Shown: positions 3,360 to 8,565 of the stretch, piece after piece
Position numbering within the stretch: the first letter of the stretch is position 1
Layout of the letters: each line of letters starts with the position of its first letter
Assembly: GCA_028820505.1 (NCBI GenBank)
Contig: JAPPIT010000189.1
Coordinates: forward strand, 1-40,832
DNA from: Defluviicoccus sp.
GTDB lineage: Bacteria; Pseudomonadota; Alphaproteobacteria; MPNO01
Length of the DNA stretch: 40,832 nt
Direction: 5' to 3'
Program-made: the position numbers and the translations under genes
The notes under the pieces: generated by a model
Seen by the model: the letters and a program-made list of their open reading frames with translations, nothing else
What the model was told of the DNA's origin: nothing
Databases searched by the model: none

Positions 3360-4529
3360 TCAGCGCGCCACGTTCAGCCGTTCGAAGCCGCGTTCGAGAT
3401 CGGCGATCAGGTCGTCGATGTCCTCGAGCCCGGCATGGATGCGGACGGTCGGACCCTCGTCCCAGACCGTCGCCGTCCGGATCGGCGCCGGGTTGGTCGG
3501 CAGGATGAGGCTCTCGAAGCCGCCCCAGCTCGCGCCCATGGAGAACAGTTTCATGCCGTCGAGCATCGCCTCCACGGCCTTGGCCGGGGCCGGGTTCAGC
3601 ACCACCCCGAACAGGCCGCAGGCGCCGGTGAAGTCGCGCTTCCACAGCGCATGGCCGGGATCGTCGGGCAGGGCGGGGTGCAGGACGCGATCGACTTCCG
3701 GGCGCTGCTGTAGCCAGCGGGCGAGGATCAGCCCGTTCTCCTGGTGCTGGCGGAGCCTCACAGCCAGGGTGCGCAGGCCGCGCAGCGCGAGATAGACGTC
3801 GTCCGGCCCGCAATTGGCGCCGAGATCGGCGGCGGACTGGCGGACCCTGGGCCACAGCTCCTCCCGGGTCGTGACGGTGCCCATCATCACGTCGGAATGG
3901 CCGACGATGTACTTCGTAGCCGCCTGGACCGAAACGTCGACGCCATGCTCGAACGGCTTGTAGAGCACGCCGGCGCCCCAGGTGTTGTCGATGATCACGA
4001 CCGCGCCCGCCGCGTGCGCCGCTTCGGCGACGGCCGGCACGTCGGTCATCTCGAAGGTGAGGGAACCGGGCGTCTCGACATAGACGATGCGCGTTCGCTC
4101 GTCGATCAGCTCGGCGACGCCGCCGCCGATCCGGGGATCGAAATAGACGGTCTCGACGCCGAACCGTCCGAGGAAGCTGTCGCAGAAGCGCCGCGCGGGG
4201 CCGTAGACGTTGTCCGCCATCAGGATGCGGTCGCCGGTCTCGACGAAGGCGAGAATGGCGGCGTTGATCGCCGCGAGTCCGGACCCCAGGCAGACCGCCC
4301 GGTCGCCGCCCTCGACCGCCGCGACCGCCTCCTCCAGCGCCGTGTGGGTCGGGGTCCCGTGCCGCCCGTAGGTATAGACGTTGGGCTCCCAGCGCCGCTC
4401 GCGCGCAGCCCGCATCGCCGCCACCGTCGGGTGGGTGATCGTCGAGGCGTGATAGACGGGCGGGTTGACGATCCCGAAATTGGCCTCGGGATCGCGGCCC
4501 GCGGTGGTGATGACGGTGTCTTCCTTCAT
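3360..4529 (-). CDS. metC: Cystathionine beta-lyase
   Basis: The 389-residue PLP enzyme belongs to the Cys/Met metabolism family. It cleaves cystathionine to homocysteine, pyruvate and ammonia in methionine synthesis. Visible features are YGRHGTPT near residue 54, the TWG segment (IIDNTWGAGVLYKP) preceding the cofactor site, the Schiff-base lysine in ATKYIVGHSD (Lys206), and the C-terminal SWGGFESL segment typical of MetC rather than MetB. The ATG at 4529 is the only sensible start, but it lacks a clear Shine-Dalgarno sequence and lies only 20 bases after a terminator-like hairpin. It leads the metC-hisI-COG0523-M15-like group. A cysteine-desulfhydrase activity is possible for this family. 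Confidence 0.9.
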   Translation of the reverse strand: MKEDTVITTAGRDPEANFGIVNPPVYHASTITHPTVAAMRAARERRWEPNVYTYGRHGTPTHTALEEAVAAVEGGDRAVCLGSGLAAINAAILAFVETGDRILMADNVYGPARRFCDSFLGRFGVETVYFDPRIGGGVAELIDERTRIVYVETPGSLTFEMTDVPAVAEAAHAAGAVVIIDNTWGAGVLYKPFEHGVDVSVQAATKYIVGHSDVMMGTVTTREELWPRVRQSAADLGANCGPDDVYLALRGLRTLAVRLRQHQENGLILARWLQQRPEVDRVLHPALPDDPGHALWKRDFTGACGLFGVVLNPAPAKAVEAMLDGMKLFSMGASWGGFESLILPTNPAPIRTATVWDEGPTVRIHAGLEDIDDLIADLERGFERLNVAR

Positions 4530-4549
4530 GGCGCGGCTATGCGGTGGTG

Positions 4550-4578
4550 AAAAGGCCGCGCATCCTGCCAGCGCGGCC
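4550..4578 (-). terminator. Hairpin with T-run between sseA and metC
   Basis: On the minus strand a perfect 8-bp stem, GGCCGCGC/GCGCGGCC (4571-4578 and 4554-4561), with a 9-base loop is followed at once by TTTT (4553-4550). It sits 21 bases after the sseA stop and 20 bases before the metC ATG, in the direction of both genes. It reads as an intrinsic terminator for sseA, or as an attenuator in the metC leader. Confidence 0.6.
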
Positions 4579-4599
4579 CGGAAGGCGCCAGACGGTATT

Positions 4600-5466
4600 T
4601 CAGGTCTCGATCGGCGTGTCCGCCCGCATGCCCCATTCCGACCACGAGCCATCATAGACCGCCACGTCGTCCTGGCCGATCAGGTGCAGCCCGAAGGCGA
4701 GAAGCGAGGCCGTCACGCCCGACCCGCAAGTGGTGGTGACCGGCCGGGCCACGTCGATCCCCGCATCGTCGAAGAGCGCGCGGATTTCGTCCGGCGGCCT
4801 CATCTCCCCCGTCTCGGGATTTACCAGCCGGTTGTATGGCAGGTTCGCGCTGCCCGGGATGTGGCCCGACCGGCATCCGGGCCTCGGTTCCGGCTCGGTG
4901 CCGGCGAAACGGCCCGGCGCTCGGGCATCGAGAATCTGCAGCGCCGCGCCGTCGAGGCTCGCCACGATCGTGTCGAGGTCGGATATGCGTTCCGCGCGCG
5001 GGCGGGCGGTGAATGCGTCCGGCGCGGGACGGGACGATTGCGGCCCGGCCTCCGTCGGTCGGCCTTCCGCGGTCCACTTGCCGAAGCCGCCGTCCAGGAT
5101 CGACACCGAATCGTGGCCGAAATAGCGCAGCATCCACCAGGCCCGGCCGACGGTCATCATCCCCACCCGGTCGTAGGCGACGACACGGGTCGAATCGCCG
5201 ATTCCAAGCTCTTCCATATTGGAGGCGAACCCCGCCGGCGACGGCGCCATGTGGGGTCTCGGGTCGTCCGGGTCGGCGATGCCGTCGATGTCCCAGTACG
5301 CGGCGCCCCGGATATGCCCGGACTCGTACTCGGCGCGGCCCGAGCGGCCGTCGGTCGGCAGGTACCAGGTGGTTTCGACGACGCGGACGCCGGGGTCGTC
5401 GAGATGCGCTTCGAGCCAATCGGCGGTTACGAGGGAACCCGCTTCCGACACCGTTCGATCTCCCAT
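4600..5466 (-). CDS. sseA: 3-mercaptopyruvate sulfurtransferase
   Basis: The 288-residue protein has two rhodanese domains and transfers sulfur from 3-mercaptopyruvate to thiols or cyanide. The N-terminal domain contains GHIRGAAYWD and the C-terminal one GHIPGSANLPYN. The active-site loop CGSGVTA (Cys247) is the mercaptopyruvate type; thiosulfate rhodaneses differ in this loop. Length is normal. The ATG at 5466 is chosen; an upstream in-frame ATG at 5517 would add 17 residues and reduce the gap to the divergent fdhD gene. Pairing with fdhD, which also moves persulfide sulfur, suggests a shared sulfur-transfer role, which is inferred from position only. Confidence 0.93.
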   Translation of the reverse strand: MGDRTVSEAGSLVTADWLEAHLDDPGVRVVETTWYLPTDGRSGRAEYESGHIRGAAYWDIDGIADPDDPRPHMAPSPAGFASNMEELGIGDSTRVVAYDRVGMMTVGRAWWMLRYFGHDSVSILDGGFGKWTAEGRPTEAGPQSSRPAPDAFTARPRAERISDLDTIVASLDGAALQILDARAPGRFAGTEPEPRPGCRSGHIPGSANLPYNRLVNPETGEMRPPDEIRALFDDAGIDVARPVTTTCGSGVTASLLAFGLHLIGQDDVAVYDGSWSEWGMRADTPIET

Positions 5467-5564
5467 TTGCGTTGCGGCGGAACCGAATCTACATGACCCG
5501 ACCGCGGAATGAGACATCCAAATCTGTTGTCCGCCGCGCCGGGTACGCACATATTCCCCTGGCG

Positions 5565-6434
5565 ATGGACTATCTGGTCAAACCGGATCCCGCCGACGAA
5601 CGGCTCACCGAGCGCGTCCCGGGCGTCGATCAGGACGGCAAGGCGATCGAGACCTCGGTCACGGTCGAGCGCCCCCTGACGCTGTTCCTCAACAGCCAGG
5701 AGATCGTCACCCTGATGACGATCGGCGACTATGTCGACTGCCTGGCGGTCGGCTACCTGATCAACCAGAACATGCTCAAGAGCGGCGACGAGGTGACCGG
5801 CGTCGACTACGACGAGGAAATCGAGACCGTCGTCGTCCGCACCGCGCACGAGACCGATTTCGAGGAACGGATGAAGAAGCGCACCCGGACCTCCGGCTGC
5901 GCGCTCGGCACCGTGTTCGGCGACGTGATGGAGACCTTCGAGGAGGTCACCCTCGATCCCGACGCCGAGGTCCGGACCTCCTGGCTTTATGCGCTCGCCA
6001 AGGCGATCAACACGACGCCCAGCCTCTACCTGGAGGCGGGGGCGATCCACGGCTGCGTGCTGTGCGAGAGGGACCGCCCGCTGATCTACATGGAGGACGT
6101 CGGACGCCACAACGCGGTCGACAAGATCGCGGGGTACATGCACCTCAACCGCATCGCGCCGGAAGGCAAGATGTTCTACACCACCGGCCGCCTCACCAGC
6201 GAGATGGTGATCAAGGCGGTGCAGATGCGGATCCCGGTCCTGGTTTCGCGCTCTGGTTTTACCGCCTGGGGGGTGGATCTCGCACGGCAGGCCAACCTGA
6301 CTCTGATCGGCCGCGCGAGGGGACGGCGCTTCATCGCGCTCGCCGGCGAAAGCCGCATCGTCTACGACGCGGACCCCAGGGTCGTCGGGGAGGAGCCCAC
6401 GGAAATGCAGCGCAAGGGCGCGCGCGCCGGGTGA
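5565..6434 (+). CDS. fdhD: Formate dehydrogenase accessory sulfurtransferase FdhD
   Basis: The 289-residue protein matches FdhD, which passes sulfur from IscS to the molybdenum/tungsten cofactor of formate dehydrogenase. The family signature MEDVGRHNAVDKIAGY is intact, as are TTGRLTSEMVIKA and LVSRSGFTAWGV. Where E. coli has a CxxC loop, this protein has SGCALGT, so only the first cysteine remains; single-cysteine variants are known in the family. ATG 5565 is preferred because it leaves 98 bases for divergent promoters; ATG 5493 would add 24 residues. No formate dehydrogenase structural gene is in the window. It is followed after 7 bases by the GIY-YIG gene. Confidence 0.92.
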   Translation: MDYLVKPDPADERLTERVPGVDQDGKAIETSVTVERPLTLFLNSQEIVTLMTIGDYVDCLAVGYLINQNMLKSGDEVTGVDYDEEIETVVVRTAHETDFEERMKKRTRTSGCALGTVFGDVMETFEEVTLDPDAEVRTSWLYALAKAINTTPSLYLEAGAIHGCVLCERDRPLIYMEDVGRHNAVDKIAGYMHLNRIAPEGKMFYTTGRLTSEMVIKAVQMRIPVLVSRSGFTAWGVDLARQANLTLIGRARGRRFIALAGESRIVYDADPRVVGEEPTEMQRKGARAG

Positions 6435-6441
6435 GGACGCC

Positions 6442-7044
6442 TTGCGGCTGACGCTGGTCTGGCAGGGCCCGGTCGGCGCCGGCCTTTTTCCCGACGACCA
6501 GACGGCGCTCGAGGCGCTGCGCGGCCCCGGCGTCTATCTCCGCATCAAGAGCTACGGCCGGGGCCGGACGGTGAGCTATGTCGGGCAGAGCCGGCATTTG
6601 CTGACCCGGATCGACCAGCACCTGACGGCGATGCTGTCGCTCCAGACTCCGCTTCGGGACGACGACGCTCGCACGATCTTTTCCGGCGATGCCGGCGCGC
6701 GGCTCGCCGCCTATGGCGATATCCGGACGGCGGCGGGCGCGGCGGCGGCCGAAGTGCTGCGGACCCGCTTCTACGTCGCTCTTTGCGACGAGGATTTCGC
6801 GCCCGAGCGGCTCGACCTGGTCGAAGGTGCGCTCAAGGCCCGGCTGGAGCAGCGCATCGCCGCGGGGGCGGGACCGTTGGCCTGCGAGAACGTCCAAGGA
6901 ATCTCCGCGGACCCGTTCGCCGACATTGCCGAGATCGCCCAGGACACCGGGGTTCTCGCCCCGCGGGACGCGGAGATCGTTGCGCGGGCGCTCGGAACGG
7001 AGCCGATCCGGGTCGACGCCGCCCTGGCCGGGACGGATCCGTGA
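6442..7044 (+). CDS. GIY-YIG domain protein between fdhD and mobA
   Basis: The 200-residue protein starts at a TTG (6442) preceded by GTGAGGACG. It contains a GIY-YIG nuclease-like core: GVY at residues 30-32, YVG at 46-48, then SRHLLTRIDQH with a candidate catalytic arginine (56) and histidine (60), and a downstream glutamate in LVEGAL near residue 127. Proteins with this fold usually cut DNA or RNA. The remainder is alanine-rich and not recognised. It is 7 bases after fdhD and overlaps mobA as GTGA, so it is locked into a molybdenum-cofactor operon. Its role there is unknown; an RNA or DNA target is possible but not shown. Confidence 0.7.
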   Translation: MRLTLVWQGPVGAGLFPDDQTALEALRGPGVYLRIKSYGRGRTVSYVGQSRHLLTRIDQHLTAMLSLQTPLRDDDARTIFSGDAGARLAAYGDIRTAAGAAAAEVLRTRFYVALCDEDFAPERLDLVEGALKARLEQRIAAGAGPLACENVQGISADPFADIAEIAQDTGVLAPRDAEIVARALGTEPIRVDAALAGTDP

Positions 7045-7658
7045 GGCCGCGCGTCGCCGGGATCGTGCTCGCGGGCGGGCTGTCGCGGCGCATGGGCGGC
7101 GGCGACAAGACGCTCAGAACCCTCGGCGGGCGCACCATCCTGGACCGCGTCATCGCCCGGGCCGCGCTCCAGGTGGACGTGCTGGCGCTCAACGCGAACG
7201 GCGATCCGGGCCGATTCGCCGCCACCGGCCTGGCGGTGGTCCCCGATACGGTGGCGGGCTTTCCGGGCCCGCTCGCCGGCGTGCTCGCCGGACTCGAATG
7301 GGCGCGGGAACAGGAATGCGGCCATGTCGCGACATTCGCCTGCGACGCGCCCTTCCTGCCCGCCGATCTGGTCTCGCGGCTGCGGTGGGCGATGGAGGAG
7401 AACGACGCCGATATCGCGTCGGCGCGTTCGGACGGGCGGGAACACCCGGTCTTCGCGCTCTGGCCGGTCGCGCTCGCGGATGCGCTGCGGACCGCCGTCA
7501 TGGAGGAGGGAATCCGCAAGGTCGACATCTGGACCGCGCGCTACCGCCTCGTCCACGCCGAGTTCGACGCCGTGCCGGTCGATCCCTTCTTCAATGTCAA
7601 CCGGCCGGAAGACATAGAAGCGGCGGAGGCGGCGCTCAGCCTGCTATCCGGTCGATGA
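7041..7658 (+). CDS. mobA: Molybdenum cofactor guanylyltransferase
   Basis: The 205-residue nucleotidyltransferase attaches GMP to molybdopterin to make MGD for DMSO-reductase-family enzymes such as formate dehydrogenase. The GTP-binding LAGGLSRRMGGGDK motif is at the N-terminus, followed by PDTVAGFPGPLAG and FACDAPFLP (the metal-binding aspartate) and FFNVNRPEDI near the end. The GTG at 7041 overlaps the previous stop. The last 23 bases overlap the end of the convergent ubiA gene. Together with fdhD it points to a formate dehydrogenase or related enzyme encoded elsewhere. Confidence 0.93.
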   Translation: MRPRVAGIVLAGGLSRRMGGGDKTLRTLGGRTILDRVIARAALQVDVLALNANGDPGRFAATGLAVVPDTVAGFPGPLAGVLAGLEWAREQECGHVATFACDAPFLPADLVSRLRWAMEENDADIASARSDGREHPVFALWPVALADALRTAVMEEGIRKVDIWTARYRLVHAEFDAVPVDPFFNVNRPEDIEAAEAALSLLSGR

Positions 7659-8565
7659 CGACCGAGCCGAGAAGACACCAGCCGAACAGCCGGTTCGACC
7701 GGAACTTGGCGAGGCAGTCCCTGGGCGCGTCGAGATCGACCGCGGCGACCTGCCAGACCAGTTGCGCGGTCGCGAAGGCGAGCCCGGCGTAGAAGACCCA
7801 GCCAAGCCCCACCGCATGGCCGGTCGCCGCGAGCAGGGCGGCGGCGATTAGATAGAAGGCGTAGAGCCACGGCTTGCTGTCGAGGCCGAGGCGGCGCGCG
7901 GTGGACTTGACCCCCGCTGCGGGGTCGTCGCGGCGGTCCTGGTGCGCGTAGATCGTGTCGTAGCCGAGCGTCCAGAAGATGCCGCCGACATAGAGCAGGA
8001 CGGGTGCGAGGCCGATGTCCCCGCGCACCGCCGCCCAGCCGAGCAGGGCGCCCCAGTTGAACGCGAGGCCGAGCACGAATTGCGGCCAGTAGGTCACCCG
8101 TTTGCTGAGCGGGTAGGTGAAGACGAGCACCAGGGACGCCGCGCCGACGGCGATCGCGAAGGGATTGAGGGTAAGCAGGATCGCAAGCCCCGCGACGAGA
8201 AGGACGATGAGGAATACGACTGCCCCCCGCACCGTGACCTGGCCGCTCGGCAGCGGCCGGTCGCGGGTGCGGGCGACCTGGGCGTCGAAGTCGCGGTCGC
8301 AGATGTCGTTGAACGTGCATCCGGCGCCGCGCATGACCAGCGCGCCGATGCCGAACGTCGCGAACAGGATCAGGCTCTCGCGCGACAGCGGCTGGGACGA
8401 GGCGAAGGCGATCGACCACCAGCACGGGAACAGCAGCAGCCAGGTTCCGATCGGCCGGTCGAGGCGCGCAAGCCGGGCATAGGGGCGCGCCGGGGCGGGC
8501 AGGAGCCGGTCGACCCAGCCTCCCTTGGGGATATCGCTCGCGGCGGTATCGTCGATGCCCGACAT
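7636..8565 (-). CDS. ubiA: 4-hydroxybenzoate polyprenyltransferase
   Basis: The 309-residue integral membrane protein prenylates 4-hydroxybenzoate, the first committed membrane step of ubiquinone synthesis. The first aspartate motif NDICDRDFD (with ARTRDRPLPSG) and the second YDTIYAHQDRRDD are both present, with about eight hydrophobic helices between and after them. Length is typical. The gene is leftward, ends inside mobA (23-base tail overlap), and its start at 8565 lies 67 bases from the divergent rsmE start. Presence of ubiA indicates a ubiquinone-based respiratory chain, consistent with the cytochrome oxidase genes downstream. Confidence 0.94.
   Translation of the reverse strand: MSGIDDTAASDIPKGGWVDRLLPAPARPYARLARLDRPIGTWLLLFPCWWSIAFASSQPLSRESLILFATFGIGALVMRGAGCTFNDICDRDFDAQVARTRDRPLPSGQVTVRGAVVFLIVLLVAGLAILLTLNPFAIAVGAASLVLVFTYPLSKRVTYWPQFVLGLAFNWGALLGWAAVRGDIGLAPVLLYVGGIFWTLGYDTIYAHQDRRDDPAAGVKSTARRLGLDSKPWLYAFYLIAAALLAATGHAVGLGWVFYAGLAFATAQLVWQVAAVDLDAPRDCLAKFRSNRLFGWCLLGSVVIDRIAG

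Follow-up and report, generated by a model that had tools for sequence, protein, structure and literature searches.

The closest described systems are nucleases of the GIY-YIG superfamily. In Eco29kI, the substitutions Y49A, R104A, H108F, E142A and N154L abolished activity or cut it strongly, according to the accessible part of the study (PMC1952068), while the active-site asparagine is given as N88 in UvrC and as N90 in I-TevI in the available portion of another report (PMC2630997). A GIY-YIG domain also occurs in the plant protein GRXS16, where it is fused to a CGFS glutaredoxin, and the domain alone is credited with endonuclease activity in the excerpt available (PMC5890173). Among open-access full texts, as represented by their titles and the beginnings of their abstracts and with no subscription papers in the pool, we met no GIY-YIG gene tied to formate dehydrogenase (FDH), fdhD, molybdopterin or the molybdenum cofactor.

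The window considered here is the whole stretch of DNA that was analyzed, namely 40,832 nucleotides of Defluviicoccus sp. (contig JAPPIT010000189.1), taken from a 5.49-Mb assembly of 228 contigs. It contains, at 6442..7044 on the plus strand, a gene with a TTG start for a 200-residue GIY-YIG protein, recognized by its homologues, a structural model and dN/dS values; the closest named relatives of the protein come from genomes that are likewise titled Defluviicoccus sp. Upstream lies fdhD, coding for the formate dehydrogenase accessory sulfurtransferase (5565..6434, +; PF02634, E 1e-72) and the single FdhD match in the window's genome. An alternative upstream ATG is found at 5493, and the alignments of many relatives begin near 5565. 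Against TIGR00129, the FdhD protein scores 134.9 bits, slightly below the cut-off of 140.9. Downstream lies mobA, coding for the molybdenum cofactor guanylyltransferase (7041..7658, +; TIGR02665, 205 bits against a cut-off of 151.85). On these profile matches, the FdhD and MobA identities can be considered secure. As the sequence-only reading of this DNA had claimed, and as the sequence confirms, seven bases (6435..6441, +) separate the fdhD stop from the TTG start, and the GIY-YIG gene shares four bases with mobA, with the tetranucleotide GTGA (7041..7044, +) holding both the GTG start of mobA and the TGA stop of the GIY-YIG gene. A convergent open reading frame, ubiA-like as named by eye (7636..8565, -), overlaps the 3' end of mobA and was used as a marker when comparing neighbourhoods. 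On the other side of the operon, a Cys/Met-metabolism PLP enzyme and a two-domain rhodanese are encoded divergently upstream of fdhD (window 3360-5550, -), so that sulfur genes adjoin the sulfurtransferase operon.

The protein is not recognized by standard family thresholds. Against the Pfam GIY-YIG family (PF01541), it yields an E of 0.18 and 12.5 bits, under the cut-off of 22.6, which should be read as a threshold and not as a biological feature. Ten of the 22 aligned members match PF01541 weakly (best E 0.019), and one member matches GIY_YIG_2 (PF20815, E 0.00089). An AlphaFold2 model (m983a605416ea, with 17 sequences as input) reached a pLDDT of 87.9 and a pTM of 0.85. Its strands (residues 30-37, 43-50 and 108-114) and helices (53-65, 94-107 and 121-140) form a core in the order strand-strand-helix-helix-strand-helix, which is the GIY-YIG topology. 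When the model was compared with known structures by VIA-align, rows 1-12 were all GIY-YIG proteins with Z values from 5.8 to 4.0, and the row after them stood at 2.5; these Z values are modest, and it should be considered that a Z below 8 can reflect a common arrangement. The structures concerned were I-TevI (5.8 and 5.6), T4 EndoII (5.3), UvrC (5.0-4.7) and the 5hmC-specific nuclease PD-T4-3 (4.2-4.0), of which we take T4 EndoII and PD-T4-3 to be GIY-YIG structures. Foldseek returned nothing from the PDB at an E of 0.001 or lower and no GIY-YIG chain in the best 50 rows, and against viral models most of its top-ranking rows belonged to GIY-YIG or intron endonucleases (E of at least 0.01). 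A profile search of PDB sequences gave two hydrogenase matches (E 0.5), taken as chance, and no GRXS16-type chain. We consider the GIY-YIG assignment firm because all 12 VIA-align top rows agree with the sequence motifs, among them the half-motifs G-V-Y (residues 30-32; 6529..6537, +) and Y-V-G (residues 46-48; 6577..6585, +). The fold named by the sequence-only reading is thus borne out, and structure prediction, which it had proposed as a check, gave a GIY-YIG core with a complete predicted active site.

The residues of this active site were followed in an alignment of 27 members, the most distant of which are about 25% identical to the window protein. Y32, Y46, G48, R56 (the predicted phosphate-binding arginine; 6607..6609, +) and N150 (the predicted active-site asparagine; 6889..6891, +) are invariant in 27/27, and G30, H60 (6619..6621, +) and E128 (the predicted metal-binding glutamate, within model helix 121-140; 6823..6825, +) are kept in at least 90%. 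R56 and H60 fall in the first helix of the model. The family can also be told by its N-terminal strand, in which L5, W7, G9 and P10 are invariant. By motif position, Y32, Y46, R56, H60, E128 and N150 correspond to Eco29kI Y49, Y76, R104, H108, E142 and N154, and R56 also to I-TevI R27, with the numbering of the arginine and histidine positions taken from the accessible part of PMC1952068. The end points of the structural alignments place N150 near N88 of UvrC and N90 of I-TevI. The conserved arginine, histidine and glutamate of the earlier reading are therefore found here as R56, H60 and E128, and the conserved set is wider than had been claimed, as Y32, Y46 and N150 also belong to it. On the model and the residues together, an active GIY-YIG nuclease is plausible. 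Two divergent members are altered at single positions, with Tyr in place of H60 in one (L034) and a residue other than Glu in the E128 column of the other (L023), as might be expected if the fold had been kept for binding nucleic acids or nucleotides by a protein that is no nuclease. We regard such a protein as very improbable. Y32, Y46, R56 and N150 are unchanged down to the most distant members, and UvrC itself has a tyrosine, Y43, at what we take to be the counterpart of the histidine position; the UvrC mutant Y43F is named in the titles of matched structures.

Of the 27 genomes of the window's order, 22 carry the gene, and in most of these it lies between fdhD and mobA. Both flanking genes were seen on the same fetched stretch in 20 of the 22 carriers; in the other two, the locus is spread over two contigs (G004) or stops at a contig end (G010). 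Outside the order, both flanks are also present in three genomes (G042, G221 and G390). The junction between the GIY-YIG gene and mobA is an overlap in 22 of 24 loci, and of 11 bases in 17 loci, where the mobA start was set in the junction table as the start codon nearest to the start projected by BLAST. The junction between fdhD and the GIY-YIG gene is a 4-base overlap in 5 of 24 loci, and the two genes are 6-67 bases apart in the rest. The GIY-YIG gene has pairwise dN/dS values of 0.07-0.31 in 11 pairs, compared with 0.04-0.16 in 9 pairs of fdhD and 0.04-0.33 in 10 pairs of mobA; it thus evolves faster than fdhD and about like mobA, and is clearly constrained. It is under purifying selection. 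A chance open reading frame is ruled out by the homologues in the 22 genomes together with these dN/dS values. As a whole, the earlier observation of the gene order stands, since the reading frame is real and conserved across the window's order. To call the gene locked between fdhD and mobA, however, was too strong, as junction lengths vary and copies outside the slot exist.

Such a conserved order invites the explanation that the protein is an accessory factor of FDH expression or maturation, for example as a nuclease of RNA or DNA that tunes the operon, or as a phosphodiesterase with nucleotide forms of the cofactor as its substrate. The order-wide conservation of the fdhD-GIY-mobA arrangement with its overlapping junctions speaks for it, as does the place of the FDH alpha gene in nine f2 genomes, where it comes directly after mobA in convergent orientation. 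The same link agrees with one genome (G006) that keeps mobA but has neither fdhD nor the GIY-YIG gene, and whose best FDH alpha match (E 1.8e-30) is not a true FDH alpha. In another genome (G008), FDH alpha was found and neither fdhD nor the GIY-YIG gene was.

If the protein served FDH, the gene should be kept wherever FDH alpha, fdhD and mobA are kept, and this fails in G018, where FDH alpha is present with a score of 748.8 bits and fdhD is separated from mobA by 3 bases. The G018 assembly is a draft, 93% complete and 7% contaminated. A second genome (G015) also keeps fdhD and mobA, about 200 bases apart, and in neither of the two was the GIY-YIG gene found in the slot or as a copy elsewhere in the genome. 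The FDH alpha gene near fdhD in G015 is, however, in two pieces (540.7 and 144.3 bits, both below the cut-off), possibly through a break in the gene or an assembly error, so that G018 is the sole clean case. For gene absence, G001 and G010 are uninformative, as their contigs end there. Among 385 genomes of the class outside the order, the GIY-YIG gene was counted in 9, excluding two weak matches (L035 and L036), and fdhD in 209. All 9 carriers have fdhD, which favours an FDH factor, although fdhD is common anyway, and 200 of the 209 fdhD-bearing genomes do without the GIY-YIG gene. The refuting outcome named by the sequence-only reading, a lack of the gene at related fdhD-mobA loci, is thus what the class shows outside the order. 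Partial arrangements also weigh against an FDH factor. In G107, mobA follows the GIY-YIG gene and a solute-binding-protein gene precedes it, in the place of fdhD. In G252, fdhD precedes the GIY-YIG gene, and no adjacent mobA was seen, either as a MobA match in the first 3 kb or among the open reading frames of at least 150 residues on the 6.2-kb contig. The cluster of G252 is unusual in its own right: fdhD adjoins a large protein with several 4Fe-4S domains and a gene that is moaA-like by eye (L099:2503-5785), and the cluster includes a divergent GIY-YIG member with His replaced by Tyr.

The slot between fdhD and mobA also holds other genes. Our survey of it in other alphaproteobacteria was made by eye among the matches listed, and covered 13 loci with a long fdhD-mobA gap (L054-L066) and a chosen set in which the two genes are directly adjacent. 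Empty junctions exist. Among the matches listed for the 13 long-gap loci, the occupants were GGDEF genes in 5, GNAT together with GGDEF in 2, and GNAT, DUF29, DUF559 and MobB/MoeA-like genes in 1 each, with other open reading frames in the remaining 2. The labels come from Pfam for L054, L055, L056, L057, L061 and L063, and the remaining GGDEF, GNAT and MobB/MoeA labels were given by eye. In position, the GGDEF, GNAT, DUF29 and DUF559 genes are like the GIY-YIG gene, yet they are unrelated to it in family. From such varied genes it follows that the slot takes passengers. Two of the occupants deserve a remark of their own. GGDEF genes lie between fdhD and mobA in several families (L057 by Pfam, L074 and L075 by eye), the one of L057 with a CZB zinc-binding match below the cut-off, and a link of c-di-GMP signalling to the FDH maturation operon is possible. 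The DUF559 gene (L063:1184-1561 of G082; PF04480, E 7e-40) encodes what we presume to be a nuclease-like fold. In SAR11, two locus numbers fall between fdhD (0681) and mobA (0684), as given in the available part of PMC3160333.

Copies of the GIY-YIG gene are also found away from fdhD and mobA. In the order to which G407 belongs, 4 of 43 genomes carry the gene, each at a different locus. One copy (L043) shares ATGA with the end of an MFS gene that precedes it, and another (L046) shares GTGA with a preceding methyltransferase gene. A third (L143) stands alone next to a gene that matches radical-SAM proteins weakly, and the fourth (L144) is truncated to 66 residues. Of these genomes, G790 has fdhD and a truncated GIY-YIG copy only, and G786 has an intact copy and no fdhD match; completeness is not stated for G786, and the missing match is possibly an assembly gap. 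With this reservation, a free copy in a genome without an fdhD match argues against an FDH factor, to which G006 and G008, missing both genes, form the counterpart. Two of the free copies (L043 and L046) are placed within the f3 slot copies (support 97/91), and once L143 is included, all three free copies join six slot copies of f3 in a single group (94/99). By comparison, a quick tree of FdhD separates the proteins of G407 and G408 from those of the window's order, which form a group (SH-aLRT 96), and by eye the fdhD-mobA slot of these two genomes is occupied by a GGDEF-type gene. Lateral transfer may thus be the source of the free copies. On inspection, the active-site residues are kept in the three intact free copies. 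Compared pairwise with one another and with one slot copy of f3, they give dN/dS values of 0.13-0.19 in 5 of the 6 pairs, and the remaining pair is saturated.

A possible mover of this kind would be a free-standing homing endonuclease with the fdhD-mobA junction as its home site, spreading by cutting empty sites followed by repair copying. The T4 Seg proteins are free-standing homing endonucleases, and I-TevI is the top structural match of our model. Empty junctions, as noted above, exist, and the GIY-YIG gene adjoins fdhD in families of the class that are not sisters by their FdhD proteins: on an FdhD tree of 60 rows, its presence beside fdhD requires 8 changes, at least 4 of them forced by well-supported branches. 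It should be noted that this quick tree contains a row that diverges strongly (L066), and that G010, G107 and the second copy of G221 (L071) were excluded from it. Against homing stand the four loci of the free copies, the flanks of which share no sequence visible by eye with one another or with fdhD-mobA, so that a common insertion target was discarded. Moreover, a separate DNA-binding domain is not evident in the 200-residue protein, no match was found in phages, plasmids or viral contigs, and homing genes do not usually persist for long with their active site intact. Taken together, we judge homing to be quite improbable. Also unlikely, in our estimate, is a wider reading, in which a chromosomal family of nucleases moves from one alphaproteobacterial lineage to another by parking at the stop codons of genes unrelated to each other, is expressed through ATGA or GTGA overlaps and has its most stable home at the fdhD-mobA junction. 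Its members would be either small stand-alone defence enzymes or homing elements that have been domesticated.

The searches of mobile elements behind the above statement were made by tblastn with the window protein against 50,697 phage and 72,556 plasmid records, with no match at an E of 0.1 or lower, and in viral contigs, where 13 pattern matches included no relative. A phage or plasmid gene is disfavoured by these match-free collections, and the absence from them fits a chromosomal accessory gene. In the phylum, 398 genomes gave a full match only in the window's own. Short matches occurred in 12 others (E 8e-4 to 9e-3), one of which (L133) was examined and is UvrC by Pfam, and a wider spread in the phylum was dismissed on this basis.

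A lead towards defence comes from PADLOC. All 22 aligned members match the candidate defence family PDC-S14 at an E of 1 or lower (best 1.1e-7), and in the window protein residues 23-62 align to positions 57-97 of the 301 of the profile. As the match is short (about 40 positions) and confined to the motif region instead of running along most of the profile, membership in PDC-S14 was rejected, and the likeness, which may be plain superfamily likeness, is a lead from sequence and not a classification. On inspection of the neighbourhood, no defence genes were noticed beside the window gene. As a separate observation, a distant protein with a W-x-G-P start and a GIY-YIG motif (L036:1129-1728) is encoded downstream of a gene with a WYL/WCX domain by Pfam (L036:2085-3164), and hhalign places it on columns 3-63 of the family with a probability of 79.

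Considering all of the above, we hold it to be somewhat probable that the gene encodes an autonomous GIY-YIG nuclease that travels as a passenger of the fdhD-mobA operon and has a function of its own rather than one as an FDH factor. The passenger is more likely than the FDH factor because relatives that keep the flanking genes do without it, because copies exist elsewhere and because the slot is mixed; an FDH factor we regard as unlikely, though it retains some weight. The stability of the gene in the order and the neighbouring FDH alpha of family f2, together with the pattern of G006, form the counterweight and should be considered when referring to this conclusion. A role in molybdenum-cofactor metabolism, in particular, is not supported, given G018, the copies elsewhere and the mixed slot. 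Of the sequence-only reading, then, the fold, the predicted active site and the conserved tight order remain, and the molybdenum-cofactor role does not.

As a passenger, the protein would be a small metal-dependent GIY-YIG endonuclease, probably active as judged from its model and residues, of an undescribed alphaproteobacterial subfamily that the N-terminal L-x-W-x-G-P strand would mark. The gene would have settled between fdhD and mobA early in the lineage and would be produced with them by translational coupling at the stop/start overlaps. Its most likely task would be DNA cutting, either in genome maintenance or against foreign DNA, which presupposes a nucleic-acid substrate and some benefit to the cell, and it would take no part in the maturation of FDH or of the molybdenum cofactor. 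The case illustrates that conserved gene order can mislead, as an fdhD-X-mobA arrangement with overlaps resembles a new step of molybdenum-enzyme maturation, and the evidence pointing to a passenger comes from relatives that keep the pathway without the gene, from copies elsewhere and from other occupants of the slot. It also adds an undescribed family of candidate nucleases, with a complete predicted GIY-YIG active site that lies below the Pfam threshold.

In comparison with known systems, the window protein has the same predicted core topology as I-TevI, the N-terminal domain of UvrC, T4 EndoII, Eco29kI and PD-T4-3, and has in common with the GIY-YIG superfamily the set of Tyr, Tyr, Arg, His, Glu and Asn. 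With GRXS16, as far as the available excerpt describes it, the likeness is that of a GIY-YIG domain tied to cofactor (Fe-S) biology, and the difference is that the window protein has no fused glutaredoxin. Unlike the known GIY-YIG proteins, it has its own N-terminal L-x-W-x-G-P strand and its own C-terminal tail, and unlike the known GIY-YIG systems, its gene is chromosomal and placed within a metabolic operon, with a product that falls below the Pfam GIY-YIG cut-off.
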